Source of the DNA: Thermincola carboxydiphila
Lineage (GTDB): Bacteria > Bacillota > Thermincolia > Thermincolales > UBA2595
Length of the DNA stretch: 64,000 nucleotides
Reading direction: 5' to 3'
Assembly: GCA_016841725.1 (NCBI GenBank)
Contig: JAENYP010000004.1
Span: forward strand, 1 to 64,000
Shown here: in pieces, positions 32,713 to 45,714 of the stretch
How the letters are laid out: the number at the start of each line of letters is the position of its first letter
Numbering within the stretch: the stretch's first letter is position 1
Translations under genes and position numbers: made by a program
The notes under the pieces: generated by a model
Seen by the model: the letters and a program-made list of their open reading frames with translations, nothing else
Told to the model about the DNA's origin: nothing
Databases searched by the model: none

Positions 32713-34203
32713 TTAATTCTTCTCTGTTTTCGTAATCTGCGGCAATTCGATTGTTACCCTTGTTCCAATATCCACGCGGCTTATAACTTCGAAATTTCCC
32801 CCGTGTTTTTCAATAATCCACTTTGCTATGGATAAACCAAGCCCTGCCCCGCCGGCCTTGCCGCCACGGGCATCAGCCGAACGATAAAAACGGTCAAATA
32901 TGCGGGGAACATCTTCAGGCTTGATACCCACCCCTTTATCCTGAACCTGAATATAGGCCTTGCCATCCTTTGGAAAAATCTTAAGACTTATCTCTTCACC
33001 TTCCGGAGTATACTTGATACTGTTATCAATCATTATCCGAATGGCCTGTTTCATCAACTGCTGATCCGCTCTGATAAATACTGGTGACTTAAAATCCACT
33101 CTGAACCTGTGGCCGGAATCGATGAGTCTTGCTTCACCAATAATTTCATCACCAAGTTTACAAATATCTATTACCGTTTTTTGCAGCGGCAGATTTTCAC
33201 TGTCCCCCCGGGCCAGGAAAAGCAGCTGTTCTACCAGGGCTTTCATGTTTTCGGCCTCGCTCTTAATGGCCTGAATTGATTCTTCCAGGGTATTAGGGTC
33301 TTTTTTGCCCCATCTGTCCAATAAATTGGCATATCCCTGAATAACAGAAATTGGTGTGCGCAATTCATGGGAGGCATCGGAAACAAATCGCACCTGGGCT
33401 TGATAAGACTGACTGATTCGGTTAAGCATATCATTAATAGCCCTTGCCAGATCCTTCAGTTCGTTTTGTGTCTGGTCTATCGATATGCCTTTATCTATCT
33501 CACTGGTATCAAGTTTACTGATAGCTCCGGCCAATTGCTTCAAATTCTCCCGGTTGGTTCCAGTACCACCTGAATTCAGACCTTCCTGAAGGCTTTTCGC
33601 AGTTTCAGCCAGGTCTGACAGTGGTTTCAGGATTTTTCTTATACCTCGCCGGTTTCTTCCCAGGGCAGACATTAAATAGAGGAATTCGAATCCACCGCTG
33701 AATATCAAAAGCATTAAAAAAAACTTTATATCTGCCGCCAGGGGATAGGTAATCTGATAAAAGACAGCTCCCTTTGGGATTGTCATAATATATCCTACCC
33801 CTTCAAGGCGCCGGTTCAGGGTAATTTGGGGACTGATATCCGGTCCTTTAAAGCTTCGAATGGCGTTTGTGGATTCCAGGGGAAGCCTGTCCTGGAAAGT
33901 CTTGTCAATATCCAATCCATCGGGAGCCTTCGCAGTGGCCTTTACCAGATAATGCTCCTTTGATAAATCCTCTGCTGCCAGCAAATTAAGTTTTCCATCA
34001 TACCGGTCTATCAGCTCCTGGGCTCCAATTTCTGCTCTCCATAGTACTGTTGCAAAGTATAAGAGGCTAAGTAAAATATTTATTATAAAGAATGCCCGAA
34101 GCAGAACTCCCGCCATCCTTAAATTCAACCTTAATACCAGGGAAGAGCGGATTTTTTCCGCAACTACAGGCGGCTTGGCATAGGTCCATTTTTGCTTACT
34201 CAT
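32713..34203 (-). CDS. Sensor histidine kinase
   Basis: The 496-residue membrane kinase has TM helices near residues 30-55 and 160-185 flanking an extracytoplasmic sensor. A HAMP-like linker, the HisKA box DASHELRTPISVIQGY near 280, and the ATPase domain with N and G boxes (DNSIKYTPEG, GGAGLGLSIAKWI) follow. Its start overlaps the response regulator stop by 8 nt. The signal is unknown. Confidence 0.93.
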   Translation of the reverse strand: MSKQKWTYAKPPVVAEKIRSSLVLRLNLRMAGVLLRAFFIINILLSLLYFATVLWRAEIGAQELIDRYDGKLNLLAAEDLSKEHYLVKATAKAPDGLDIDKTFQDRLPLESTNAIRSFKGPDISPQITLNRRLEGVGYIMTIPKGAVFYQITYPLAADIKFFLMLLIFSGGFEFLYLMSALGRNRRGIRKILKPLSDLAETAKSLQEGLNSGGTGTNRENLKQLAGAISKLDTSEIDKGISIDQTQNELKDLARAINDMLNRISQSYQAQVRFVSDASHELRTPISVIQGYANLLDRWGKKDPNTLEESIQAIKSEAENMKALVEQLLFLARGDSENLPLQKTVIDICKLGDEIIGEARLIDSGHRFRVDFKSPVFIRADQQLMKQAIRIMIDNSIKYTPEGEEISLKIFPKDGKAYIQVQDKGVGIKPEDVPRIFDRFYRSADARGGKAGGAGLGLSIAKWIIEKHGGNFEVISRVDIGTRVTIELPQITKTEKN

Positions 34204-34888
34204 CTTTTATCACATATCCCACACCCCTGACGGTATGAATCACCTTAATTCCGAAGGGGTCTTCTATTTTCGAACGCAGATATCGGATATATACATCTAC
34301 TGCATTAGTTTCACCGGAAAAATCATAACCCCAGATTCTCTCCAAAATTATCTCTCTTTTCAATACAATATTTTTATTTTCAATTAAATACTGTAATAAA
34401 TCAAATTCTCTCTTTGTAAGCTCCAGGGGCTCTGATCCAACCCAGGCACTTCTCCTCTCTGCATCCAGTTTTAAGGGCCCCGCCTCCAAAGTACCGGAAG
34501 TGCTTTGGAGTGAGCGGCTTGCCTTTGTTCTAAGGACCGCCCGAATTCTGGCCAGCAGTTCTTCAATGGCAAAGGGTTTTGTGATATAGTCATCTGCACC
34601 TCCGTCCAAGCCCATGACCTTATCCACAACGGCATCTCTGGCTGTCAAAAGGATAATGGGAATCTGAGAAAACTGCCTGATTCTTCGAAGGACTTCAAGA
34701 CCGTTAAGTTCCGGCAGCATGATATCGAGTAAAATCAAATCAAAGGGATGGGCTTTGGCAAGAGCCAGCCCATCCCTTCCATTGGAAGCTTTTTCAACCA
34801 GATACCCTTCAAATTGCAGTTCAAGCTCAACAAAACGGGCAATTTTATCTTCATCCTCAATAATCAGAATTCTTTCCATTCTCATCAT
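34196..34888 (-). CDS. OmpR-family response regulator
   Basis: This 230-residue regulator has a receiver domain with acidic pocket EDED, phospho-acceptor Asp in LILLDIMLP (about residue 55) and Lys in DYITKPF. A winged helix with VDVYIRYLRSKI and IHTVRGVGYVI follows. It overlaps the end of the DUF4342-type gene upstream by 32 nt and the kinase gene downstream, so the three genes are one unit. Confidence 0.93.
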   Translation of the reverse strand: MMRMERILIIEDEDKIARFVELELQFEGYLVEKASNGRDGLALAKAHPFDLILLDIMLPELNGLEVLRRIRQFSQIPIILLTARDAVVDKVMGLDGGADDYITKPFAIEELLARIRAVLRTKASRSLQSTSGTLEAGPLKLDAERRSAWVGSEPLELTKREFDLLQYLIENKNIVLKREIILERIWGYDFSGETNAVDVYIRYLRSKIEDPFGIKVIHTVRGVGYVIKDE

Positions 34889-35456
34889 GATCCTTTTTAT
34901 TTTTATAGTCTCCTACAGCTTTTTTAGCTGCATCAGATACAGATTCCACTGCCTGTAAAGCTGCTTCGGAAACTTTATGCAGCTCCTGGTTTGCCTGATT
35001 TACATCTGGCCCTTTAAAGCTGTACCGGTATCCAAAAACAAGCCCCAGAATCAATAATGGAATAACAATCCACATCCCAAATATCAGCAGGATAGCCAAA
35101 AGATTTAGAGGAATCTTCAGGATTCTCTCCCCGCCTTTTTTGGCTTCAAAGCTGTTAACATTCCCTTTGTGAATAATCTTTCTTACCCAGCCCCATATAT
35201 CTCCCATCACGTCACCAAAGGATATTTTATCTGTTTTATCATTCCCCGGTGTTCTGCCATCTTTTCCGGAAGCCGCTGCTGCCGGGTTTAAATTGAAAGT
35301 GCCGACACCTTCAGGGCTGTTGATCCGGTTCTGCTTTTCAAGGATGATAACCGCATCCAATAAATCTCCGTTCGCCTGCTCTAAAACTTCTTTTGCCTCT
35401 TCATAAGTAATATTTGCATACTCTTTTAATTTTTTCACTTCATCGAAACCTGTCAT
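34857..35456 (-). CDS. DUF4342-type protein with UBA-like N-terminus and a membrane segment
   Basis: The 199-residue protein begins with a UBA/CUE-like helix bundle (residues 1-45, TYEEAKEVLEQANGDLLDAVIIL). A linker and a DUF4342-like segment with KGGERILKIPLNLLAILLIFG follow, then one membrane helix (about 115-140) and a charged tail. It is first in a transcript with the two-component system and may feed it a signal or be its target. Function is not established. Confidence 0.75.
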   Translation of the reverse strand: MTGFDEVKKLKEYANITYEEAKEVLEQANGDLLDAVIILEKQNRINSPEGVGTFNLNPAAAASGKDGRTPGNDKTDKISFGDVMGDIWGWVRKIIHKGNVNSFEAKKGGERILKIPLNLLAILLIFGMWIVIPLLILGLVFGYRYSFKGPDVNQANQELHKVSEAALQAVESVSDAAKKAVGDYKNKKDHDENGKNSDY

Positions 35457-35706
35457 TACGATAACCTCCTCTCTTTATTACGGTTATCATAACAGTTAAA
35501 GATTTGAATCCCATTGATACTTCATTAAAATTAGATTAAAATTCATGTTTCATTATAATTTCCTTATCTCATCTTGTCAATTACCGGAAACCAAATATTG
35601 GATTTCTGACCACGCCAGCTCCAAGTCAATGGAGATAGAAGGGGAAAACCACCGGTGTGTCGAAAAAAGTAAACTTAATCATTGCCTTAAAGGAGTTGAA
35701 GAGAAT

Positions 35707-38349
35707 TTGCTAAGCCCGATACTAAAAACAAAACTATTTTTACCGGCATCAAGGCCCAATTCGGTCTCTCGCTCCTTATTGATTCGCAAAATCTCTGAAG
35801 GGATAGAACAGGGAGGGAAACTTACACTGGTTTCTGCCCCGGCGGGGTATGGCAAAACAACATTAATTACAGAATGGCTAAAAACCGTTAACCGTGAGTG
35901 TGCCTGGGTTTCCATGGATACCGGGGACAATGATCCCAAGAGATTCTTCACATATCTGATTGCATCACTAAAGAGCATCCTGGAGGGGTTTGACCAGGAC
36001 CTCAGCAGCCTGATAGAATCCCCACAGCTGCCAACTCCCGAGATTTTAGCAACACTGCTGCTTAACCGATTGGTAAGTATGGATAGCCCGTCAGTTTTGG
36101 CAATAGATGATTATCATGTGATTACTAATGATTATCTGCACCGGACTATAGAATTCATGATTGAGAATTGTCCGCCGTTATTCCATATAATAATTATTTC
36201 GCGTCTCGACCCTCCTCTGCCCCTTGGAAAATGGCGGGTGAGAAGTTTGCTGACAGAGGTCCGGGTAAATGATTTAAGGTTCTCTGACGAAGAGGTGAGG
36301 GCATTTTTTGCTCAGACTATGCAGCTCAGTCTAAAACCGGAACACATTGTTTCCCTTAAGACCAGAACCGAGGGATGGATTGCCGGTCTCCAACTGGCAG
36401 CCCTTTCCCTGCGGGGCAAAGAAGAACAGGGGATAGCGGAGTTTATTGAACGATTTAGGGGAAGCCACAGGTTTGTCATAGACTACCTGTTTGATGAAGT
36501 TTTTCACCTGCAAACAGATGAAGTGAAAGAATTTCTTTGCAGCACAGCTATATTAAACCGGCTGTGTGCTGATTTATGTAATGAATTAACAGACAGAAAA
36601 GACAGTATGAATATCCTGCTAAACCTGGAACAAAACAACCTTTTTCTGATTCCTCTGGATGAAGAGCGTCAATGGTATCGCTATCATCACCTGTTCGCAG
36701 ATTTCCTCCGTACAGAGTTAGAGGCAAAGCAACAAGCAGTTTTACATCAAAAAGCTGCTAAATGGTATGAAAGTAACGGTTATCAAAATGAAGCCATAGA
36801 CCATTCTTTAGCTGCCGGAGATAAAGAAAAAGCGGTCGGCTTAATAAAGAGACAACTCAGTCAGAGCATTATCAGGGGAGACTTATATACTCTGATTGAA
36901 TGGTTGGAAGGTTTAGATGAAAACCTTGTCCGCAAGGACGGGGAGCTTTGTTCAACCAAAGCCTGTGCCCATTTTCTCCTGTCCCAAATTGAACAGGCCT
37001 GTTCTTATGTAAAAGATTTTAAGCAAATAAAAAATGCAGACAGGTTGAGCTTGGGAAGGGTTAAAACACTGGAAGCCTGGCTCGCAAATATTCGCGAAGA
37101 TAAAATGACCATAGACCTGGCAAAGGAGGCTATAGGGCTGATGGGCAATCAGGACCTTGGATTGAAGGTTTTTGCTCTGGTGGCATTGGCTCAGTCTCTG
37201 AGAAGCAGAGGTTATTTGGATAGATCCACTGACGCCTTTAAAGAGGCATTGCAGATTAGCAGGCAGTTCGGATACACCTTATCCATTTGTACCGTAACAA
37301 TGGATTTGGTTTATAATTACTATATCCAGGGCGATTTGCAGTATGCAATTCAATTGTGCCTGGATATGCTGGCGGTTAAGAACACCGAAAACAGGCCTTT
37401 GCCGGCGGCAGGAATTCTTAACATCCCTCTGGCTGCCTTTTATTTTGAGTCTAATCAGATTGAATTGGCAGAAGAAACTGTGCTCAGAGGAATCGAAACC
37501 AGCCGAAAGCTGGCAATGCACAATATCTTCGGCGGAGATGGGGAAAGAACTCTGGCCAAAATCAAATCCTTACAGGGAAGCCATGAAGATGCTTCAGCTA
37601 TAATTCAAAACGCTCTTAATAGCGCCAGATCCGCAGGTTTGCCCATTATTACCCTGAGATTTGAGGCGCTTCTTGCAGAATTCAAACTTGCTGCAGGTGA
37701 TGTACAATGGGTAGAAGATTGGATTAGGAGAAGCGAATTATCCCCAGAGGGTGAGATTACTTCATTAAAAGAACAGTCCTACCTGGTCTTTGTGCGGCTC
37801 CTGATGACCAAAAAACTTTGGCAGAAAGCAGAGGCTCTCCTGGCAAGGCTGGAGAATTTCTCACACAAGGGTCAGAGGAAAGGGCGCCTGGTTAGTATTT
37901 TGGTTCTGCAGGCTATCTTAAGTGGTGCAGTGGGCAATGCAGATGGCGCAAAGATGAAGCTCCGGGAGGCTGTTAATATCGCGGCCCCACATAACTACCG
38001 CCGGTCTTTTCTGCAAGAGGGAGAGCAGGTTCTACACCTGCTGCCTTTAGTACAGGACACTGCTCCGGAGTTCGTTGCCAGCCTGATTGAGGACTTTCAC
38101 CCGGAATTAAACTTAAACCATTTGGTCTCCAGGATTAATACAGCTGGTGGTTTGGCGGAACCCCTCAGTGAAAGGGAGTTAGAAGTTTTAAAGTTAGTTG
38201 CCACCGGGTTGCCAAATACAGAAATTGCCGGAAAGCTCTATATTAGTTTAGGAACTGTCAAATGGCACACTAACCATATATACGCAAAACTCGGAGTGAA
38301 AAACAGGACCCAGGCTGTCAACAAAGCAAAGGAACTGAAGATTATTTAG
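35707..38349 (+). CDS. LuxR-family (MalT-type, LAL) ATP-dependent regulator
   Basis: The protein has about 880 residues: an N-terminal STAND-type NTPase with Walker A APAGYGKTT, a central helical/TPR-like region, and a C-terminal LuxR helix-turn-helix (LSERELEVLKLVATG ... GTVKWHTNHIYAKLG). I start at TTG 35707, after AAAGGAG; LSPILKTKLFLPASRP then matches the usual LAL beginning. An ATG at 35545 has no ribosome-binding site. It is the first plus-strand gene and probably controls the genes that follow. Confidence 0.88.
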   Translation: MLSPILKTKLFLPASRPNSVSRSLLIRKISEGIEQGGKLTLVSAPAGYGKTTLITEWLKTVNRECAWVSMDTGDNDPKRFFTYLIASLKSILEGFDQDLSSLIESPQLPTPEILATLLLNRLVSMDSPSVLAIDDYHVITNDYLHRTIEFMIENCPPLFHIIIISRLDPPLPLGKWRVRSLLTEVRVNDLRFSDEEVRAFFAQTMQLSLKPEHIVSLKTRTEGWIAGLQLAALSLRGKEEQGIAEFIERFRGSHRFVIDYLFDEVFHLQTDEVKEFLCSTAILNRLCADLCNELTDRKDSMNILLNLEQNNLFLIPLDEERQWYRYHHLFADFLRTELEAKQQAVLHQKAAKWYESNGYQNEAIDHSLAAGDKEKAVGLIKRQLSQSIIRGDLYTLIEWLEGLDENLVRKDGELCSTKACAHFLLSQIEQACSYVKDFKQIKNADRLSLGRVKTLEAWLANIREDKMTIDLAKEAIGLMGNQDLGLKVFALVALAQSLRSRGYLDRSTDAFKEALQISRQFGYTLSICTVTMDLVYNYYIQGDLQYAIQLCLDMLAVKNTENRPLPAAGILNIPLAAFYFESNQIELAEETVLRGIETSRKLAMHNIFGGDGERTLAKIKSLQGSHEDASAIIQNALNSARSAGLPIITLRFEALLAEFKLAAGDVQWVEDWIRRSELSPEGEITSLKEQSYLVFVRLLMTKKLWQKAEALLARLENFSHKGQRKGRLVSILVLQAILSGAVGNADGAKMKLREAVNIAAPHNYRRSFLQEGEQVLHLLPLVQDTAPEFVASLIEDFHPELNLNHLVSRINTAGGLAEPLSERELEVLKLVATGLPNTEIAGKLYISLGTVKWHTNHIYAKLGVKNRTQAVNKAKELKII

Positions 38350-38372
38350 TTGGAAAATTATCAAAACCATGA

Positions 38373-38398
38373 GAGGGGCAGAGAACATTCTGCCCCTC
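38373..38398 (+). terminator. Strong hairpin after the LuxR-type gene
   Basis: A perfect 10-bp stem (38373-38382 with 38389-38398) and a 6-nt loop lie 23 nt after the stop codon. No long T-run follows, so it may stabilise the 3' end rather than terminate efficiently. Confidence 0.5.
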
Positions 38399-38420
38399 CC
38401 TGTATATGAAAAATTACAAA

Positions 38421-38464
38421 AACCTAACCTGATACCTGAACTTTGGTTAGGTTACAACCTAACC
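38421..38464. promoter_or_regulatory. Triple 9-mer operator-like repeat
   Basis: AACCTAACC (38421-38429), its inverse GGTTAGGTT (38445-38453), and AACCTAACC again (38456-38464) form two nested inverted repeats just upstream of the 68-residue gene. The LuxR-type regulator upstream is the obvious candidate binder, by inference. Confidence 0.5.
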
Positions 38465-38511
38465 TCCTATGAGTTATAAATGATATATAGCGATGTGAGG
38501 AGGAGGTACTA

Positions 38512-38718
38512 ATGAACTATGAAATTGTTATACTCGGCCATATCGATAAACGGCGGCTTCGAGAGTTAGATGGAATTGAACTGGAGTTTTTACCTGGTGG
38601 GGAAACCAAAATTACGTGCCGAGAGTTTGACCAGGCTTCACTGCATGCCATAATAAACCGAATCTATAATCTGGGACTAACTCTAAAAGTTGTTAAGGAA
38701 GTTGCACTGGATAAATGA
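38512..38718 (+). CDS. Small conserved protein associated with LAL regulators
   Basis: The 68-residue soluble protein has an initial YEIVILGHID segment and a C-terminal DQASLHAIINRIYNLGLTL segment. From memory, similar small proteins with a GHxD start and DQAALHGxLxRIRDLGL end lie beside LAL regulators in Actinobacteria and Chloroflexi, function unknown. A strong ribosome-binding site (GAGGAGGAGG) precedes the ATG. Confidence 0.75.
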   Translation: MNYEIVILGHIDKRRLRELDGIELEFLPGGETKITCREFDQASLHAIINRIYNLGLTLKVVKEVALDK

Positions 38719-38782
38719 GAAAAATGATATCCCGGCAACACACAGTTAGCAGGTAAATACAAATGGAAATGGAGGAAAAGAA

Positions 38783-38968
38783 ATGTTCTGGTGGATTAGT
38801 GCTTTTATTGTTTGGTTAGTTTCAGCTGCTTGAATTTTCTCTATTCTTGCGGGCGTGTTCCGCGGCAAAACTGCTGCATTCAGCGGGAAGGTATTACCTT
38901 GGTACGGTTTTCATGGAATTACAGCTATTTTGGCTGTTTTCCTGATGTTAATTGCTCAAAGATCTTAA
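38783..38968 (+). CDS. Small membrane protein with in-frame UGA (putative selenoprotein) 1
   Basis: The frame runs from ATG 38783 (GGAGG, 7-nt spacing) to TAA 38966 and is interrupted only by TGA at codon 17 (38831-38833). Read through, it gives a 61-residue protein with two membrane helices; the UGA falls inside the first (LVSAA-U-IFSILAG). A hairpin follows with loop GCGTGTT at positions 20-26 after the UGA, as expected for a bacterial SECIS. A TGG-to-TGA nonsense mutation is the main alternative. No homolog is recognised. Confidence 0.6.
38844..38870 (+). promoter_or_regulatory. SECIS-like hairpin 1
   Basis: Stem TTGCGG (38847-38852) pairs with CCGCGG (38860-38865), with two G-U pairs. 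The 7-nt loop GCGTGTT begins 20 nt after the UGA, the position where the E. coli fdhF SECIS presents its apical loop. Confidence 0.5.
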
Positions 38969-38984
38969 TAAGGAGGAAGCCGCT

Positions 38985-39188
38985 TTGTTGAAAATTCTTG
39001 GTTATTTATTACTGTCAATTGGTCTTGTCTGAGTTATTTGGATAATGGGAGGGGTCTTCTCCCATACATTTTCCAATATAAATGAACTCTGGGGCGCCTT
39101 TGCTTTCCATACTGTCAGCATGATTCTTGGAACAGCCTGTGTTGCCCGGTCTGTCAAGTCAAAAAGCTCAAAAGCGATTAATCGATAG
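38985..39188 (+). CDS. Small membrane protein with in-frame UGA (putative selenoprotein) 2
   Basis: The frame runs from TTG 38985 (AGGAGG, 8-nt spacing) to TAG 39186 with one TGA at codon 16 (39030-39032). The product would be 67 residues with two membrane helices; the UGA is in the first (SIGLV-U-VIWIMGG), at nearly the same place as in the preceding gene. The second helix contains WGAFAFHTVSMILG. A 7-bp hairpin with loop GGGTCTT and an outer 5-bp stem follows, again with the loop at +20 to +26. The alternative is a mutated Trp codon. Confidence 0.62.
39038..39076 (+). promoter_or_regulatory. SECIS-like hairpin 2
   Basis: Inner stem ATGGGAG/CTCCCAT (39045-39051, 39059-39065), loop GGGTCTT containing the GGTCT of the fdhF SECIS loop, and outer stem TTGGA/TCCAA (39038-39042, 39072-39076). 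It starts 5 nt after the UGA. Confidence 0.6.
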
Positions 39189-39202
39189 GAAGGTAATTTA
39201 CA

Positions 39203-40162
39203 ATGAAAAGAAGAATAATAGCTATGCTAGTGGGTATGTTTTTTGTTTTAACTACTCTGATATGGGTGAAATATCAAAGAGATATGCGAGTATCCTATGA
39301 GCGTGTCCAGGGGAAGAGCAGTATAATCTCTACGCCTTATGGCAATGTTGAATATACTGAGGGTGGAGTTGGCCCTGATGTTTTAGTAATCCATGGAGGC
39401 GGTGGTGGTTATGATCAGGGAGAACTGCTTACCCATACTGTATTGGGTGACAAATTTAGATGGATTACTCCCTCGCGTTTTGGCTATCTGGGATCAAGTC
39501 TACCGGAGGGGGCCACTTATGATGATCAGGCTCATGCATATGCAAAGTTGTTAGACCATCTCAAAGTTGAAAGAGCTGCCGTGGTCGGCTTTTCAGCCGG
39601 CGGTCCCTCAGCGCTTCTTTTTGCACTGCTTCACCCTGACCGGGTTTCTTCCCTTACTCTCATTTCAGCCGGGGCTACAAATGTAGCTGAAGAAGCAGGA
39701 AAACAGGGTGAAAAAAAGGGTAAGATGTTATCAAATTTAATGCAAAGAGACTTTCCCTACTGGGTTTCGGTAAACCTGTTTAAGAAACAGATTATGCAGT
39801 TGATGGGGGCCAACAAAGAAGTGATAGCAACCCTCAGCCCGGAACAAATAAAAGTAATGGATCAAGTCATTGATTATATGAACCCTGCTGCGCTGCGCAA
39901 GTCAGGTGCTGCTTTTGATCACTACGCTGCGTTACCTAATGAGCGAATTGCCGGAATCCGCACACCGACTCTGGTCGTGCATGCTGAAGATGACACTTTA
40001 CAGCCGTATCAGAATGCTGTCTTTACATCTTCCACCATTCCGGGTGCCCGCTTGCTCAGTTTCGAAAATGGTGGGCATTTCCTTGTGGCCGTTGAACAGT
40101 CTACAGTCAGCAGGGAGGTATATATGCACATTTCTGATTCAGTATTTGAAACTAAAGAATAA
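39203..40162 (+). CDS. Membrane-anchored alpha/beta hydrolase
   Basis: The 319-residue protein has an N-terminal signal-anchor helix (residues 4-22) and a hydrolase fold with oxyanion segment VIHGGGGGYDQ near 72. The nucleophile elbow GFSAGG places Ser near residue 131; Asp in HAEDDTLQPYQ and His in ENGGHFLVAVE complete the triad. The substrate is unknown. It is the last gene of the plus-strand cluster, 14 nt after the second UGA-containing gene. Confidence 0.88.
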   Translation: MKRRIIAMLVGMFFVLTTLIWVKYQRDMRVSYERVQGKSSIISTPYGNVEYTEGGVGPDVLVIHGGGGGYDQGELLTHTVLGDKFRWITPSRFGYLGSSLPEGATYDDQAHAYAKLLDHLKVERAAVVGFSAGGPSALLFALLHPDRVSSLTLISAGATNVAEEAGKQGEKKGKMLSNLMQRDFPYWVSVNLFKKQIMQLMGANKEVIATLSPEQIKVMDQVIDYMNPAALRKSGAAFDHYAALPNERIAGIRTPTLVVHAEDDTLQPYQNAVFTSSTIPGARLLSFENGGHFLVAVEQSTVSREVYMHISDSVFETKE

Positions 40163-40211
40163 ACTTTTAACTGTAGAGTGTTCGATTACATGCCAAATTT
40201 GACCAAAAAAC

Positions 40212-40330
40212 AAACAAGGGATTCCCGCCCCAAAATGCTGGAATCCCTTGACTTATGTTCATTATGGCGGAGAGACAGGGATTCGAACCCTGGGTACCGT
40301 GAGGTACACTCGATTTCGAGTCGAGCGCTT
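40212..40330 (-). repeat. tRNA-Ser(CGA) 3' fragment plus terminator, diverged copy
   Basis: The minus strand keeps a tRNA-Ser from the anticodon stem (CTCGACTCGAAATCGAG) through variable arm, T-arm and CCA (40265-40330), but lacks the acceptor 5' strand and D-arm. The downstream terminator hairpin (40212-40255) resembles those at 42169 and 45574 with several differences. It marks an old junction and also ends the flanking convergent transcripts. Confidence 0.8.
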
Positions 40331-40345
40331 TTGACAATAGGTCTA

Positions 40346-41023
40346 CTAAGCAGGTGCCTGCGTCAAATCCCAAAGTTTAATCACACTTCCTGGTGAAACG
40401 ACCTGGAATCTTTCATCCCACTGCCCCTTAACAAGCTTTCGCAAAACATCCAGCGTCCCGTGAATGCGATAAGTTTGCAGATCAAAGAATTGCGCCTGCT
40501 CTTTCATTTCCCTAAAAACAGCCTCTTGATCGTCAGCCTCGGTTTGAATTAATGCGAATCGTTTATAGTTTGCTAAAACACGCTTGGAAAACCGCAGGGA
40601 TTTCTCATGTCCCAGTTTGGGAACTAAAACCTCGTAAAATTTGTGTTTAGGATTAAAATGCTTCATCCACCCCCCGGTTAAAAAAAGCGCCCCCATTTCT
40701 GTTCCTAAATTAGCGCGATACCTTTCATCAGAACCTAATAACATAGCCAGGCAATCATGGTACTGAGGCAGAACCAGGGAAGACTGTTTACTTGTCAACC
40801 CAAGTAAACCATTACCGCACAGAGCATAGGCCAGTAAAATAAAATCTACATTGCTGATGCCATCAATTGTTTCCTGAAGGGCATCTCTCAACTTGTCCGG
40901 CTTCTCATGCAGTCCGGGTTGCATATAAATCACCGGGAACCCTATCTCGTTTTCCTCCAATACGTAATTAATCTCCTCTTCAATAGTGCGGCATGCGCAA
41001 ATTATAGCCTTAACTTTTAACAC
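40346..41023 (-). CDS. DUF1638 domain protein
   Basis: The product has about 225 residues and starts AIICACRTIEEEINYV. It has the LLAYALCGNGLLGL segment near residue 65, LPQYHDCLAMLLGS near 85 and GALFLTGGWMKHF near 115, typical of DUF1638. In methanogens and acetogens such genes accompany corrinoid methyltransferases; none is visible here. The start is uncertain: GTG 41023 sits directly after a G-run, and an in-frame ATG at 41077 has no site. It follows the 57-residue gene and marR on the same strand. Confidence 0.78.
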   Translation of the reverse strand: MLKVKAIICACRTIEEEINYVLEENEIGFPVIYMQPGLHEKPDKLRDALQETIDGISNVDFILLAYALCGNGLLGLTSKQSSLVLPQYHDCLAMLLGSDERYRANLGTEMGALFLTGGWMKHFNPKHKFYEVLVPKLGHEKSLRFSKRVLANYKRFALIQTEADDQEAVFREMKEQAQFFDLQTYRIHGTLDVLRKLVKGQWDERFQVVSPGSVIKLWDLTQAPA

Positions 41024-41212
41024 CCCCCGTTTCCATGATAGAAGAACAAACACAGTATTGGCATAAAGACATTTCATCGTTCAACCACTTATGTTTTACC
41101 GGGCAAAGAAAGTTATTGTCTTGACCAATAATTTTTTGCTCCTCTTTAAAGAACATGCCGGGTGGATGCAGCGGCTTCTTGACGATAAAAGCCAGATAAA
41201 TAGAAACAATCC

Positions 41213-41386
41213 TTATACAAGAAACATCTTCAGATCATACTTAGCAATCAGCTGGAAATTATACTCTAAACTTCCTGGAGGGTGTTGCAACTCTTGCCCG
41301 TCAACCTTATGCTTTTGCGCAAGCTCCTCTTCAGTAAAACATTCGGCTTCCTTTTTTAGTAGCTTGAACAACTCTCCAGAGTTCAT
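41213..41386 (-). CDS. Small hypothetical protein (57 aa)
   Basis: ATG 41386 is preceded by GAGGTG at 5-nt spacing, and the frame ends at TAA 41213. The product is charged at the start (SGELFKLLKKEAECFTEEEL) and ends EYNFQLIAKYDLKMFLV. I do not recognise it. It lies between marR and the DUF1638 gene, downstream of the second MarR-type palindrome, so it is probably part of the same regulon. Confidence 0.6.
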   Translation of the reverse strand: MNSGELFKLLKKEAECFTEEELAQKHKVDGQELQHPPGSLEYNFQLIAKYDLKMFLV

Positions 41387-41486
41387 TGCAGCACCTCGTT
41401 ATCCAATAAAATAATTGCAGTTCTTATCAAGTCTTTCGTCAACATCTCCCCATTCCTTTTAGTTTTGACAGTCCTTGCCGGAACAC

Positions 41487-41498
41487 GTGTATATACAC
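41487..41498. promoter_or_regulatory. MarR-type operator half of a matched pair
   Basis: The perfect palindrome GTGTATATACAC recurs at 41977-41988 just upstream of marR. Here it lies between marR and the 57-residue/DUF1638 genes. Confidence 0.6.
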
Positions 41499-41515
41499 TC
41501 TTTTGAGAAAAAATA

Positions 41516-41974
41516 TTAAGGCACAAGAGCCTCAATTTTAGAGAGTAATTCCGTCAAAGCAGCCACTTCTTCTTTCCCCAGATAGTTCACCAGCGAATTC
41601 TGAGCTTCTGACCAGACTGCCTCAGCTTCCAAAGTCAACTTGAGGCCTCTTTCCGTTAATTTCAGCTGACGGCTCCGGGTACCCGTTGCCGCTATGTCCT
41701 CAATGAAACCTTGCTCTTCGAGTGACCTAAGATTCCTTACAAGGGTGGTTCGATCAAGTCGCATTGCCAAAGCCAAATCGCTTACACTGACTGGCTCTAG
41801 GCTCTTTATGTGCGCCAAAAGTGAAAATTGGTTGACCCTCAATCCGCAAGGCTTAAGCAATTCATCGTACACGTGGGTTATGGCTTGGGAAGCCCGGCGC
41901 AAGTTAAGGCAATTGCAGACCGAAGGTTTCTTATTACGGGTCGTAAATTCCAAAACACCACCTGCTTCTGTCAT
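41516..41974 (-). CDS. MarR-family transcriptional regulator
   Basis: The 152-residue winged-helix protein has LRVNQFSLLAHIKSLEPVSV, recognition region LALAMRLDRTTLVRNLRSLE and wing GTRSRQLKLTERG. Cysteines in SVCNCLNLRR near residue 20 could be redox- or metal-sensitive. A perfect palindrome overlaps its transcription start, suggesting autorepression. Confidence 0.92.
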   Translation of the reverse strand: MTEAGGVLEFTTRNKKPSVCNCLNLRRASQAITHVYDELLKPCGLRVNQFSLLAHIKSLEPVSVSDLALAMRLDRTTLVRNLRSLEEQGFIEDIAATGTRSRQLKLTERGLKLTLEAEAVWSEAQNSLVNYLGKEEVAALTELLSKIEALVP

Positions 41975-42024
41975 TAGTGTATATACACTATTTAAATTAT
42001 ATTATAAGTAACCCTTCTTGTCAA
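41975..42024 (-). promoter_or_regulatory. marR promoter and operator
   Basis: Minus-strand TTGACA (42019-42024), 17-nt spacer, TATAAT (41996-42001) is a full consensus promoter. The 16-nt palindrome TAGTGTATATACACTA (41975-41990) covers the start site and touches the marR ATG. Nothing else is seen up to 42168. Confidence 0.8.
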
Positions 42025-42168
42025 AAGAAGGCCTTTATGCTTTTTGCTTGCCCCGGATAATTGCAGGTGGTCGTAGAATTTACCAGTATTGCTTATAGTT
42101 TGTTTTTTGACTAATTGGCTGCCACCGCGTCTGCTCCTCGTCGCTTTTGGCCCACTTGCAAATAAACT

Positions 42169-42248
42169 AAACAAGGGATTCCTGCCCCAATAGCAGAAAT
42201 CCCTTGACTTATATTCATTATGGCGGAGAAGGTGGGATTCGAACCCAC
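42169..42248 (-). repeat. 80-nt direct repeat: tRNA-Ser 3' end plus terminator (copy 2)
   Basis: Identical over 80 nt to 45574-45653. It contains only the T-arm/acceptor 3' strand and CCA of tRNA-Ser(CGA) and the following terminator hairpin. It borders the islet carrying the radical-SAM and WG genes and serves as their terminator. Confidence 0.9.
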
Positions 42249-42301
42249 TAGACCCTTCAACAGATGGAACCCCTTTTGGGTTTTTTCCTTTCCTGTACAA
42301 A

Positions 42302-43711
42302 TCACCCTCCCGCAGCCAAATTCCAGAATAGCTCCTGTAGGACTGTTTTGCTTACCGTGCATGATATTTCACGCACATATTCTTTTAATTCATTGGGAGC
42401 TTTGGGATTTCCCTCTATAGAAAAAATCCCTATAGGACATCCCCCTCCGCAAAGGTATCTGTAACTACATTCCCGGCATTTCTTTCTATTATCGACGTTA
42501 ACGATATCAAGCATTCTTGCCAGCACATTTTTTCTGGGGAAATCATCCATTAGAATATTGCCCACTTCATACTGTTTGTTTCCGACCAGATAAATGCAGG
42601 AATATATCTCGCCGTTGCTGGTAATAACAGGAGTATTTCCAATGGGAGCACCACACCCCCAGGGGTTTTTAAATGAAGGCTGAAGACGGTGATTATATTC
42701 ATTGAAGGGGTAAAGGCTTGTAATTGGCCAAATACCTGAATGAAATACTTCTCTAAGGCCTTCTGCATATTTTTGGGGTGACGGGCACAACTCAAGGTCC
42801 AGCAGCTTAATATCTGAATCTACGGGATTTAAGGGAACAAAAGCGCAGCCAGCTGCCCCAAGCTCCTGATGCGTTTTCGCCACATCCATCATTAAGGAAT
42901 CAGTATAGCTGGTCACGGTTGCCCGTAAGGAAACTTTAAGACCGGCTTTGATAAGTTTTTCAACGTTACCTGCGGTTGTCCGGAAGCTTCCTTGGCCATT
43001 AATAAAAGGCCGTGTTTTGTTGTGAATTTCTTCAGGTCCATCAATATCAACCAAGAATGTGATGTTATTTTGCAAAGCAACTTCAATAAGGTCATCAGGG
43101 AATAATGTAAGATTGGTTGTCAGGTGATAAGCAATTTGCTTGCCGGGATTTCTAGGAATCAGGTTATTATTGCAATAATCAATTACCTTTTTTGCTAGAT
43201 TCCAATTCATCAGAGGTTCGCCGCCAAAAAATACTATTTCCAATTTGCCAAATTCAGCAATTGAATCAAGTATGTTGTCAAGAGACTTGAACGCAACTTC
43301 CTCTGACATCATTAAAGATTCGTGTTTTTGGTATGTATTCTTTCCGTTAAAACAATAGATACAAGCTTGGTTGCAGCTATGAGTTAATAAGAGATATACA
43401 CTGCGCGAAAACGATAACCTCTCTGCCATTTCATACCCGCAGCACTTTTTTTGTTCTATGGTTTTGCTGGAATCTTCCGGGATTATAAGAAAATGTGCAC
43501 AAAAAAAATCAAATGCCTCCTGTGAGCAAAAATCAGGCAGGCAAGCGGCAGAAATAGGCCCCATTTTTTTTAATTCCGCAAGTAAATCTAGGGCTTGATT
43601 TCCGCCAACAGGAAAATATATTGGGTTCACCTGAACTGCATTGAAAATAATTATTTCTTCTCCGCGTTTGAGGACTTCGATCTCATCAGCAACAACAAAA
43701 TGTGCTTGCAT
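42302..43711 (-). CDS. Radical-SAM/SPASM peptide maturase-like enzyme
   Basis: This 469-residue enzyme has an N-terminal region of about 90 residues that may bind a precursor. The radical-SAM cluster motif CNQACIYC follows near residue 113, with FFGGEPLMN near 170. A SPASM domain has cysteines in NPWGCG, EIYSCIY and CRECSYRYLCGGGCP near 345-430. Such enzymes install thioether or carbon-carbon links in ribosomal peptides; Cys-rich peptide maturases of the CcpM type are the closest class I can think of. It lies 22 nt after the WG-repeat gene, whose C-terminus is the candidate substrate. Confidence 0.9.
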   Translation of the reverse strand: MQAHFVVADEIEVLKRGEEIIIFNAVQVNPIYFPVGGNQALDLLAELKKMGPISAACLPDFCSQEAFDFFCAHFLIIPEDSSKTIEQKKCCGYEMAERLSFSRSVYLLLTHSCNQACIYCFNGKNTYQKHESLMMSEEVAFKSLDNILDSIAEFGKLEIVFFGGEPLMNWNLAKKVIDYCNNNLIPRNPGKQIAYHLTTNLTLFPDDLIEVALQNNITFLVDIDGPEEIHNKTRPFINGQGSFRTTAGNVEKLIKAGLKVSLRATVTSYTDSLMMDVAKTHQELGAAGCAFVPLNPVDSDIKLLDLELCPSPQKYAEGLREVFHSGIWPITSLYPFNEYNHRLQPSFKNPWGCGAPIGNTPVITSNGEIYSCIYLVGNKQYEVGNILMDDFPRKNVLARMLDIVNVDNRKKCRECSYRYLCGGGCPIGIFSIEGNPKAPNELKEYVREISCTVSKTVLQELFWNLAAGG

Positions 43712-43733
43712 AGAGTTTTTCTTCTCCTTTACC

Positions 43734-45374
43734 TTAAACGTAAGTACAGACTGCAGTGCAGCCCATTGTACAGCCCATGGTGCAGCTCCAGTCGCAGGGA
43801 TTGTTTATGGGGCCGACGTTTAAGTCAGGTGCTGATTCTTCTATCGAAATCAACTCCCCCTGCTTGTCATAATATTTTATGAGCATTCCCTTTTTGTCTA
43901 TAAAGGCACTTGTATCACCAACTTTAACAGGTGCCAATCCACCTGAAAAAGCCCCGGCCTCATCAAAGATGGTACTGATCACCATCTTTCCATCGTAGTC
44001 TATATAACCCCATTTATCACCACGTTTAACTGTCGCCAATCCTTCTGAATATTCGACATTTTGTGTTTCTGATTGAGAGCTGCCGTTGTCCTGATTGATA
44101 GGCTCCGGGGATTGTAATTCAGATGTCGGTTCTTCCATAGTTGGTTCTGGTGCTGGCGTCTGTTCTAAAAAGGACAAAACAATATTACCCTTCTTATCAA
44201 TGTACCTCCAGTTGTCCCCAACCTTGACAGCCGCCCAGCCTTCCGAAAATGTAAAGGCATCGTCATATTGGGCACTTATCACCAGCTTTCCCTGCTTATC
44301 TATATAGCCCCATTTATCACCAAGCCTAACTCTGGCCAATCCTTCAAAAAAAGACCAAGAACCATCATCAAACTGAGCATTGATCACCATATTCCCCTTC
44401 TTGTCTATATACCCCCATTTATCACCACTTTTAACCGCAGCCAAGCCTTCCGAAAAAGACCAGGAACCTTCATCAAACTGGGTGCTTATGACCATATTTC
44501 CCTTCTTGTCTATATAGCCACATTTATCACCACGTTGAACTACTGCCAGCCCTTCAGCAAAAGAACCGGCCCAATCAAACTGAGCACTTATCACCATTTT
44601 CCCCTTCTTGTCTACATACCCATATTTATCACCACTTTTAACCGCAGCCAAGCCTTCCGAAAAAAGAGAGGCATAATCAAACTGGATACCTATCACCAGA
44701 TTCCCCTTCTTATCTATATAGCCAAATTTATCACCACGTTTAACCGCGGCCAATCCTTCCGAAAAAGCCCAGGAACCATCATCAAACTGGGCGCTTATGA
44801 CCATATTTCCCTTCTTGTCTATATAGCCATAATTATCCCCATATTGAACTACTGCCAATCCTTCGGAAAAAGACCAGGAACCTTCACCAAACTCGGCACT
44901 TATGACCATATTTCCCTTCTTATCTATATAGCCATATTTATCACCGAGTTTAACTCTGGCCAAGCCTTCGGAAAAAGGCCAAGTATTATCAAACTGGGCA
45001 CTTATGACCATATTCCCCTTCTTATCTATATAGCCATATTTATCACCACGTCTAAACATTGCCAACCCTTCCGAAAAAGAACCGGCAAAATCAACCGCGA
45101 ATTTCTCTTTAGCATTTTGGGTAGCAAAAAGAGAGTAACCCCCGCCCTGATTTTTTGAGCCAGGTTCCAGGGAACACCCATAAAGAGATATTCCGATTAT
45201 GCCTATGCCTATCAAACCTGTGGTTACCAGTGTTTTCGTTGATACTGAGTTGAAATTTGCTGTAATAATCAAACATTTTCTTGGCGTATTGTCTTTGGTC
45301 ACTATGGTGCACTTTTTCTGGCAATCGGTTCCTTCTCCAGAGACTTTTTGTCCTTCTGAATTCTGACTATCCAT
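43734..45374 (-). CDS. WG-repeat protein with C-terminal CX3 repeat tail
   Basis: The 546-residue protein has a Cys-containing N-terminus, a hydrophobic helix (about 49-68, ending LYGC) and eleven WG-type repeats of about 34 residues (FSEGLA..GDKYGYIDKKGNMVISAQF). A Pro/Glu linker separates repeats 9 and 10. The last 20 residues (527-546, DNA 43737-43796) are five CX3 units: CDWS, CTMG, CTMG, CTAV, CTYV. WG repeats are usually extracytoplasmic binding modules. The tail looks like a ribosomal peptide core for the adjacent radical-SAM enzyme. Confidence 0.88.
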   Translation of the reverse strand: MDSQNSEGQKVSGEGTDCQKKCTIVTKDNTPRKCLIITANFNSVSTKTLVTTGLIGIGIIGISLYGCSLEPGSKNQGGGYSLFATQNAKEKFAVDFAGSFSEGLAMFRRGDKYGYIDKKGNMVISAQFDNTWPFSEGLARVKLGDKYGYIDKKGNMVISAEFGEGSWSFSEGLAVVQYGDNYGYIDKKGNMVISAQFDDGSWAFSEGLAAVKRGDKFGYIDKKGNLVIGIQFDYASLFSEGLAAVKSGDKYGYVDKKGKMVISAQFDWAGSFAEGLAVVQRGDKCGYIDKKGNMVISTQFDEGSWSFSEGLAAVKSGDKWGYIDKKGNMVINAQFDDGSWSFFEGLARVRLGDKWGYIDKQGKLVISAQYDDAFTFSEGWAAVKVGDNWRYIDKKGNIVLSFLEQTPAPEPTMEEPTSELQSPEPINQDNGSSQSETQNVEYSEGLATVKRGDKWGYIDYDGKMVISTIFDEAGAFSGGLAPVKVGDTSAFIDKKGMLIKYYDKQGELISIEESAPDLNVGPINNPCDWSCTMGCTMGCTAVCTYV

Positions 45375-45453
45375 AAGTTATCACTCCCAGTTTCCCGAAT
45401 CGCTATTCTAATGAATCAATTTACCTGCAAATAATTACCGTTATTACAGTTAT

Positions 45454-45481
45454 GTTATATTATACCCTTAGCAACTGTCAA
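45454..45481 (-). promoter_or_regulatory. Sigma-A promoter of the WG/radical-SAM operon
   Basis: Minus-strand TTGACA (45476-45481), 16-nt spacer, TATAAC (45454-45459). It lies about 80 nt before the WG gene start. No other feature is seen in 45375-45565. Confidence 0.6.
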
Positions 45482-45565
45482 TACTAGCACACTGCTTAGG
45501 TAAAATACCGGCAAAAATGCCGAGATTAAAATTACCGTTACATGTTCATGAATAACCTGCTCTTC

Positions 45566-45653
45566 CAAACAAAAAACAAGGGATTCCTGCCCCAATAGCA
45601 GAAATCCCTTGACTTATATTCATTATGGCGGAGAAGGTGGGATTCGAACCCAC
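45566..45653 (-). repeat. 80-nt direct repeat copy 3 and tRNA-Ser terminator
   Basis: 45574-45653 equals 42169-42248 exactly. Here it belongs to an intact tRNA-Ser gene: the T-arm and acceptor end, then a hairpin AAGGGATT/AATCCCTT with inner CTGC/GCAG pairing and T6. Confidence 0.9.
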
Positions 45654-45714
45654 GTGCCCTTGCGGACAACCGCATTTCGAGTGCGGCGCGTTACAGCCTC
45701 TTCGCTACTTCTCC
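45626..45714 (-). tRNA. tRNA-Ser (CGA)
   Basis: The intact 89-nt class II tRNA has acceptor GGAGAAG, anticodon CGA in ACTCGAAAT, a long variable arm and an encoded CCA. Its 3' end is the likely integration target that generated the duplicated ends at 42169. Confidence 0.95.

Follow-up and report, generated by a model that had tools for sequence, protein, structure and literature searches.

The locus examined here raises the question of why a long WG-repeat protein of Thermincola carboxydiphila should end in a regular run of cysteines directly beside a gene encoding a radical-SAM/SPASM enzyme. The two genes lie within the window, which is the whole stretch of DNA that was analysed (64,000 nt, positions 1 to 64,000 of contig JAENYP010000004.1, assembly GCA_016841725.1). 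The original prediction, made from the sequence, was that the tail is a possible RiPP core carried by a giant leader, and that after modification it could stay fixed to a surface protein. The features on which the discussion is based are listed in Table 1.

Table 1. Features of the WG-repeat/radical-SAM locus (window coordinates) and examples of comparable proteins on phage-type contigs
Feature	Position	Strand	Basis or remark
WG-repeat protein, proposed substrate carrying the tail	43734..45374	-	546 aa, ATG start, TAA stop
Tail CDWS-CTMG-CTMG-CTAV-CTYV, residues 527-546, proposed modified core	43737..43796	-	sequence; 501-546 pLDDT <50
Hydrophobic segment, residues 49-67, ends LYGC, putative N-terminal anchor	45174..45230	-	hydropathy
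Radical-SAM/SPASM enzyme, 469 aa	42302..43711	-	CX3CX2C at 113/117/120
Gap with AAAGGAG RBS-like sequence before the radical-SAM ATG, 22 nt	43712..43733	-	read by eye
Best promoter-like site upstream of the WG gene, TTGACA-18-TAACAT	45452..45481	-	10/12 matches
Direct repeat copy 1, 80 nt: 3' end of the intact tRNA-Ser(cga) and terminator	45574..45653	.	
Direct repeat copy 2, 80 nt, 100% identical: 28 nt of tRNA 3' end and terminator	42169..42248	.	
Intact tRNA-Ser(cga), apparent insertion target	45626..45714	-	
Third, diverged tRNA-Ser-like remnant and terminator	40212..40335	-	
Examples of CX3-run carriers (IMG/VR)	L204:15-2504, L215:189-2495, L239:806-2062, L264:852-1655		

The open reading frame of the WG protein had been placed correctly, and its eleven repeats were recovered as 11 stretches matching Pfam PF14903, with 385 bits against a gathering score of 25.6. 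Its last residues are NNPCDWSCTMGCTMGCTAVCTYV followed by the stop codon, and the five units CDWS, CTMG, CTMG, CTAV and CTYV do end the protein as had been described. The ten cysteines of the protein are found at residues 18, 22, 34, 67, 285, 527, 531, 535, 539 and 543, and the last five of these occupy every fourth residue of the tail. If ten cysteines were scattered randomly over the 546 residues, five-Cys runs at this spacing would have an expectation of 3e-7 anywhere in the protein and of 6e-10 exactly at the C-terminus, and chance was rejected as the origin of the tail. A sequencing or frame artefact was also ruled out, given the long open frame, the clean stop and the RBS-like site for the next gene.

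The membrane segment claimed for this protein is represented by a hydrophobic stretch at its hydropathy peak, residues 49-67 (19-residue Kyte-Doolittle mean 1.85). Its ending in LYGC, by comparison with the lipobox, is perhaps an untypical lipoprotein signal. The single-sequence AlphaFold model of the protein (mean pLDDT 54) presents a beta meander at residues 104-400 and 446-502 and pLDDT below 50 at residues 1-100, 401-444 and 501-546, and it was used for the disorder of the ends only. The tail, which lies within the low-confidence stretch 501-546, is predicted to be unstructured, which fits an accessible tail, low pLDDT being weak evidence of disorder. No relatives of the WG protein were found in the PDB.

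The tail was also expected to be like known thioether cores. It does resemble CX3 cores, and the arrangement CxxxCT occurs in it four times, with no Thr at i+2 and no Asp four residues after any of its cysteines. The likeness did not extend to the curated precursor models, none of whose cut-offs is passed by the last 45 aa: the best match, TIGR04118, gave 17.3 bits (E 0.0034, cut-off 35) and the CXXX-repeat target model TIGR04114 gave 9.7 bits (cut-off 20). The SCIFF peptide model TIGR03973 matched neither the whole protein nor its last 45 aa; the peptide of a true SCIFF pair (L002), which lies on the same contig about 67 kb away, scores 85.6 bits with this model.

The radical-SAM gene is indeed located 22 nt downstream of the WG gene. 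Besides the radical-SAM motif the enzyme has SPASM cysteines at residues 353, 372, 412, 415, 421, 425 and 444, and both groups of cysteines align with those of SCIFF maturases, the pattern being complete; the Pfam SPASM match alone gives 15.6 bits, below the cut-off of 21.5. None of the NCBIfam maturase cut-offs is passed. The best curated match is to PapB (NF047865, 181 bits, cut-off 340), and with the nif11-type model TIGR04064 (181 bits, cut-off 519), the SCIFF maturase model TIGR03974 (161 bits, cut-off 425) and the SCIFF-like orphan model NF040492 (159 bits, cut-off 855) it makes up the top four, all of them models of thioether-type maturases or of relatives of these. The QhpD-type model comes next, and the sulfatase-maturase model TIGR03942 gave 107 bits. 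In a PDB search with the enzyme the closest solved structure by sequence was CteB (5wgg, E 1.5e-27). Moreover, the best three fold matches to its AlphaFold model (24-row alignment, mean pLDDT 70, pTM 0.74) are CteB chains (5why/5wgg, E 1e-20 to 2e-18), and the sulfatase-maturase structure 4k36 is among the matches both by sequence and by fold. Residues 102-458 align to 20 SCIFF maturases in hhalign (E 4e-47). The N-terminal 100 residues fall outside this alignment and have pLDDT below 50, with no reliable RRE (winged helix) modelled. The assignment of the neighbour to the thioether-forming radical-SAM type thus agrees with the PapB, nif11 and SCIFF scores and with CteB as the best PDB match, and sequence and model together support its probable membership of the thioether-forming SPASM group. 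The pair also shows the general gene arrangement of ranthipeptides, a SPASM radical-SAM gene adjoining a Cys-rich C-terminus.

The pair is enclosed by the two 80-nt direct repeats, which have no other genes between them and delimit a cassette of 3.4 kb. Each copy consists of 28 nt of the tRNA-Ser(cga) 3' end followed by a terminator, and copy 2 sits just past the radical-SAM stop, its terminator being at 42172-42206. The cassette has three non-coding gaps, one of 53 nt at 42249-42301, the 22 nt between the genes and one of about 199 nt at 45375-45573, and promoter-like sites around the WG gene are no commoner than in shuffled sequences. When both strands of the cassette were read for ORFs of 25 aa or more, no other plausible precursor was found, and it is reasonable to regard the WG protein as the sole plausible substrate encoded there. 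The cassette also contains no gene for a protease, an exporter or immunity, and no integrase gene was found between the repeats. Between copy 2 and the third tRNA-Ser remnant lie a MarR gene and a DUF1638 gene (Pfam).

In three related genomes (G001, G002 and G003) different genes follow the same tRNA-Ser. The names given to this cargo are our own assignments of ORFs and do not come from a family search: a putative spore-coat-like ORF and others in G001; a short RelE-like ORF, two putative AbiE-like ORFs and methylase-like ORFs in G002; and putative relaxase-like and AbiE-like ORFs in G003. The backbone, at 34001-40321 of the window, can be aligned with G001 as far as its tRNA-like copy. As the pair lies between perfect tRNA-Ser repeats and the cargo varies in relatives, it looks like a cassette at an insertion hotspot, which would extend over 40212-45714 and comprise three tRNA 3'-end copies, insertion at the tRNA being the presumed mechanism. 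Direct repeats at both ends and variable content, which are traits of tRNA-targeted islands, are present, and the integrase is absent.

Several characterised or curated systems resemble this pair in part. One of them is SCIFF/thermocellin (TIGR03973 with TIGR03974, CteB/Tte1186), which has the CX3 run of cysteines, Ser/Thr spacers, CxxxCT and a SPASM enzyme. The SCIFF peptides located beside relatives of the enzyme contain CX3CX3CX3C, and CKTSCT was found in 12 of these 14 (32 loci were read, on the + strand only, which covers those whose enzyme gene is on that strand). The reviews PMC8172795 and PMC8326336 report that with Tte1186 and CteB in vitro Cys32 was joined to Thr37, five residues on, whereas the link formed on co-expression of peptide and maturase was Cys32-Thr34 and not Cys32-Thr37. 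The differences are that the peptide there has 46 aa and the repeat protein here 546, that the tail and the enzyme of the window fall below both curated cut-offs, and that residues 1-100 of the enzyme are unaligned. The CXXX-repeat target systems (TIGR04114/TIGR04115) and the Cys-repeat proteins of phages share with the pair long proteins, a Cys at every fourth residue and a SPASM neighbour. Nevertheless, here the carrier is a WG protein with five such cysteines only, and both models stay below cut-off (69.7 bits of 350 for the enzyme with TIGR04115, 9.7 of 20 for the tail). PapB/freyrasin provides the best curated enzyme match and also C-terminal Cys repeats, but the enzyme of the window is below the cut-off and the tail has no CX3D motif. 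QhpD is a radical-SAM enzyme that makes thioethers inside a protein which keeps its function, according to PMC8172795 and PMC11002830. It acts, however, on an enzyme subunit and not on the tail of a repeat protein, and the enzyme of the window reaches 147 of 453 bits with the QhpD-type model. Finally, the AC3_0185 family of radical-SAM-modified Cys-rich RiPPs (TIGR04118) gives the best precursor match of the tail, but the score is half of the cut-off and the model, with 46 positions, describes a short peptide.

The source organism is rich in systems of Cys peptides and radical-SAM enzymes, which makes a further one plausible. Apart from the SCIFF pair, its genome encodes a CLI_3235-type bacteriocin-type peptide beside a radical-SAM gene (L003:988-1191, G000:C16; 29.9 bits, cut-off 26). 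A short CX3 peptide with CGAVCGGGCSAGCGGGCVGGC is also found beside a radical-SAM gene (L004:770-1120, G000:C19) and has a weak match to the huazacin family, 16.8 of 35 bits. A 48-aa ORF ending ACSACTACTACR, a SACTACTAC peptide with no NCBIfam match, adjoins two radical-SAM genes (L005:2092-2238, G000:C35). The only other WG-repeat protein seen in this genome (L093-L099, G000:C21:18670-19974) is part of a long ORF cut by the end of the locus.

Searches for the same pair elsewhere gave few relatives. Two draws from the phylum, each of 398 genomes and perhaps sharing some of them, yielded no ortholog of the pair, and the enzyme query retrieved generic SCIFF-type relatives only, at about 30% identity. 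In one draw 4 of 398 genomes had a match to the enzyme (E 1e-42) and in the other 2 of 398 (E 1e-43), both counts including the own genome. A scan for close relatives of the enzyme gave one generic relative (L037) on genome contigs and none on viral contigs, and tblastn against plasmids and phages gave generic enzymes only, below 60% identity. With the C-terminal 99 residues of the WG protein as query, WG repeats were matched in 40 of 398 genomes, the own one among them; of the matches listed, the own alone extends past query residue 81, so that no other covers the Cys tail. On plasmids 14 records match this query, and among the 10 of them listed the best coverage likewise stops at residue 81. 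Twenty WG ORFs were read, some of them cut by locus ends, and none of the 19 non-own ones had more than one Cys in the last 30 residues. A search for the CX3-tail pattern gave matches in 71 of the 398 genomes, mostly of low complexity or out of frame; 23 distinct matches were translated and 11 loci inspected, among which the only convincing non-own tails belong to YlbF-like proteins of G004 and G007. One match, in G005, was rejected as antisense to a repeat-rich ORF. On viral contigs the CX3 tail with Thr was found in 47 stretches, and the 12 ORFs that end in this way are all of low complexity and without WG repeats. A TIGR04115 search of 299 genomes gave no matches, but its controls also gave none.

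The check that had been suggested, namely a search for WG proteins with CX3 tails next to SPASM genes in other genomes, thus found none in the phylum draw, the plasmids and the 19 non-own WG ORFs. As the searches with the enzyme likewise gave no ortholog, this negative result neither supports nor refutes the proposal, and with no ortholog of the pair there is no co-conservation to draw on. The pair may be very rare, or it may be present in groups outside the sample. Among the publications listed by our literature search, none joined WG repeats with radical SAM/SPASM enzymes or ranthipeptides, and none was evidently on a bacterial WG-repeat protein or on radical SAM with phage tails.

A parallel is provided by phage-type contigs. 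IMG/VR was scanned with the SCIFF-maturase alignment, which gave 80 loci (L194-L273) with SPASM relatives, several of the contigs being near-duplicates. A nearby protein of at least 60 aa with at least five cysteines at spacing 4 was present in 41 of them, and in none of 12 viral loci of seryl-tRNA synthetase, a small control. All 41 proteins are encoded on the same strand as the enzyme, which is weaker than it looks because phage genes often share one strand. These carriers mostly have 150-830 aa and their Cys part is usually C-terminal; by motif, no WG protein was found at the 80 loci. In PHROGs, four of the nine carriers scanned matched structural families: L264 (long tail fibre, 2e-10), L205 (virion structural protein, 7e-13), L239 (tail fibre, 2e-9) and L233 (tail protein, 1e-6). 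The L239 carrier also bears a GDSL lipase domain. Two of eight viral enzymes passed the TIGR04115 cut-off of 350 (L206 with 446 bits and L265 with 483), and the other six were nearest to PapB, below its cut-off. In 86 distinct viral runs, comprising 642 units, the residues between the cysteines are mostly Ser, Thr and Gly, and directly after Cys Gln and Glu are also common. On phage-type contigs, therefore, SPASM enzymes commonly and recurrently have a long protein with a CX3 run as a neighbour, and some of these may be thioether-knotted phage tail proteins. Part of this pairing is already known as the curated family TIGR04114/TIGR04115; no publication on long CX3 proteins beside SPASM enzymes was found in the literature searched. 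With regard to the giant leader of the original prediction, the size is real (546 aa), and its exceptional character is not sustained, since 41 of the 80 phage-type loci carry such proteins nearby.

The reading that is favoured for the locus, with a probability of about 0.62, is that the WG protein stays at the surface and that its tail carries thioethers. The two genes would constitute a cassette for a post-translationally modified protein, in which the SPASM radical-SAM enzyme would abstract hydrogen from residues of the unstructured tail and close ranthionine-type thioether bridges from the spaced cysteines. Since the tail has CxxxCT four times and no Thr at i+2, the favoured bond would be Cys(i)-Thr(i+5) within CxxxCT, comparable to the Cys32-Thr37 bond of SCIFF in vitro, with up to four bridges and a loss of 2 Da for each. 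The hydrophobic N-terminal segment would serve as a membrane anchor, the WG solenoid would face outwards, and the knotted tail would be displayed and not released, the cassette having neither protease nor exporter. The pair would travel, or would once have travelled, as a tRNA-Ser-targeted island, and its role may lie in surface structure or in microbial conflict.

That the neighbouring enzyme modifies the tail in some way is highly probable, and two alternatives to the favoured reading retain this step. In one of them the WG protein is a mere carrier, and the modified tail is cut off and freed as a short ranthipeptide acting as a signal or bacteriocin. Ranthipeptides are known mostly as short leader-bearing peptides, the residues before the tail (501-526) are flexible and of low confidence, and the putative toxin-antitoxin and AbiE-like cargo at the tRNA site would suit a role in conflict; but no GG-type site is seen before the tail, the cassette offers nothing for cleavage, export or immunity, and the N-terminal hydrophobic anchor argues for retention, which makes release quite unlikely. 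The other alternative concerns the chemistry: the enzyme could form S-to-alpha-carbon bridges, use other acceptors or perform another oxidation in place of Cys-Thr thioethers. SPASM enzymes do catalyse varied reactions, and sulfatase maturases are also matched (TIGR03942 and 4k36), yet the best matches are PapB, nif11, SCIFF and QhpD-type models, and as PapB, SCIFF and QhpD make thioethers, such a departure is considered very unlikely.

It could also be that the tail is left unmodified and binds a metal or an Fe-S cluster or forms disulphides, while the enzyme acts elsewhere. Two putative YlbF-like proteins from the same family (L071:5007-5510 and L073:3269-3703, in G004 and G007) end in CX3 tails of the CGSDCGPDCGTDCGPSCGCN type without a SPASM neighbour; their genes lie downstream of a MiaB-like gene, that of L073 also upstream of a MutS-like gene. 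As these tails occur without a SPASM maturase, a CX3 tail alone does not prove modification. Against an unmodified tail in the WG protein stand the enzyme gene 22 nt on with its own RBS-like site, the lack of another candidate substrate in the cassette and the Thr-rich spacers, which resemble radical-SAM cores, so that this explanation is regarded as unlikely. The thioether-modified, retained tail is thus kept as the preferred reading.

The chemistry and the idea of CXXX repeats are already known; new with respect to the literature searched are the WG carrier, the anchor and the tRNA cassette. Since RiPP mining usually seeks short precursors by their enzyme, a precursor of 546 residues is likely to be overlooked. 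Modification of the tail would mean that radical-SAM thioether chemistry reaches a repeat-protein scaffold, and would provide a genetically encoded means of placing stable knots on large displayed proteins. Whether there is a broad class of protein-scale, never-released "RiPPs" with radical-SAM-knotted ends, comprising phage tail fibres as well as the WG cassette, is a more tentative proposal, for which the odds are somewhat below even. Nonetheless, the phage-type parallel suggests that the principle is widespread and can be tested on several carriers, and the tRNA-Ser site illustrates how such gene pairs may spread.
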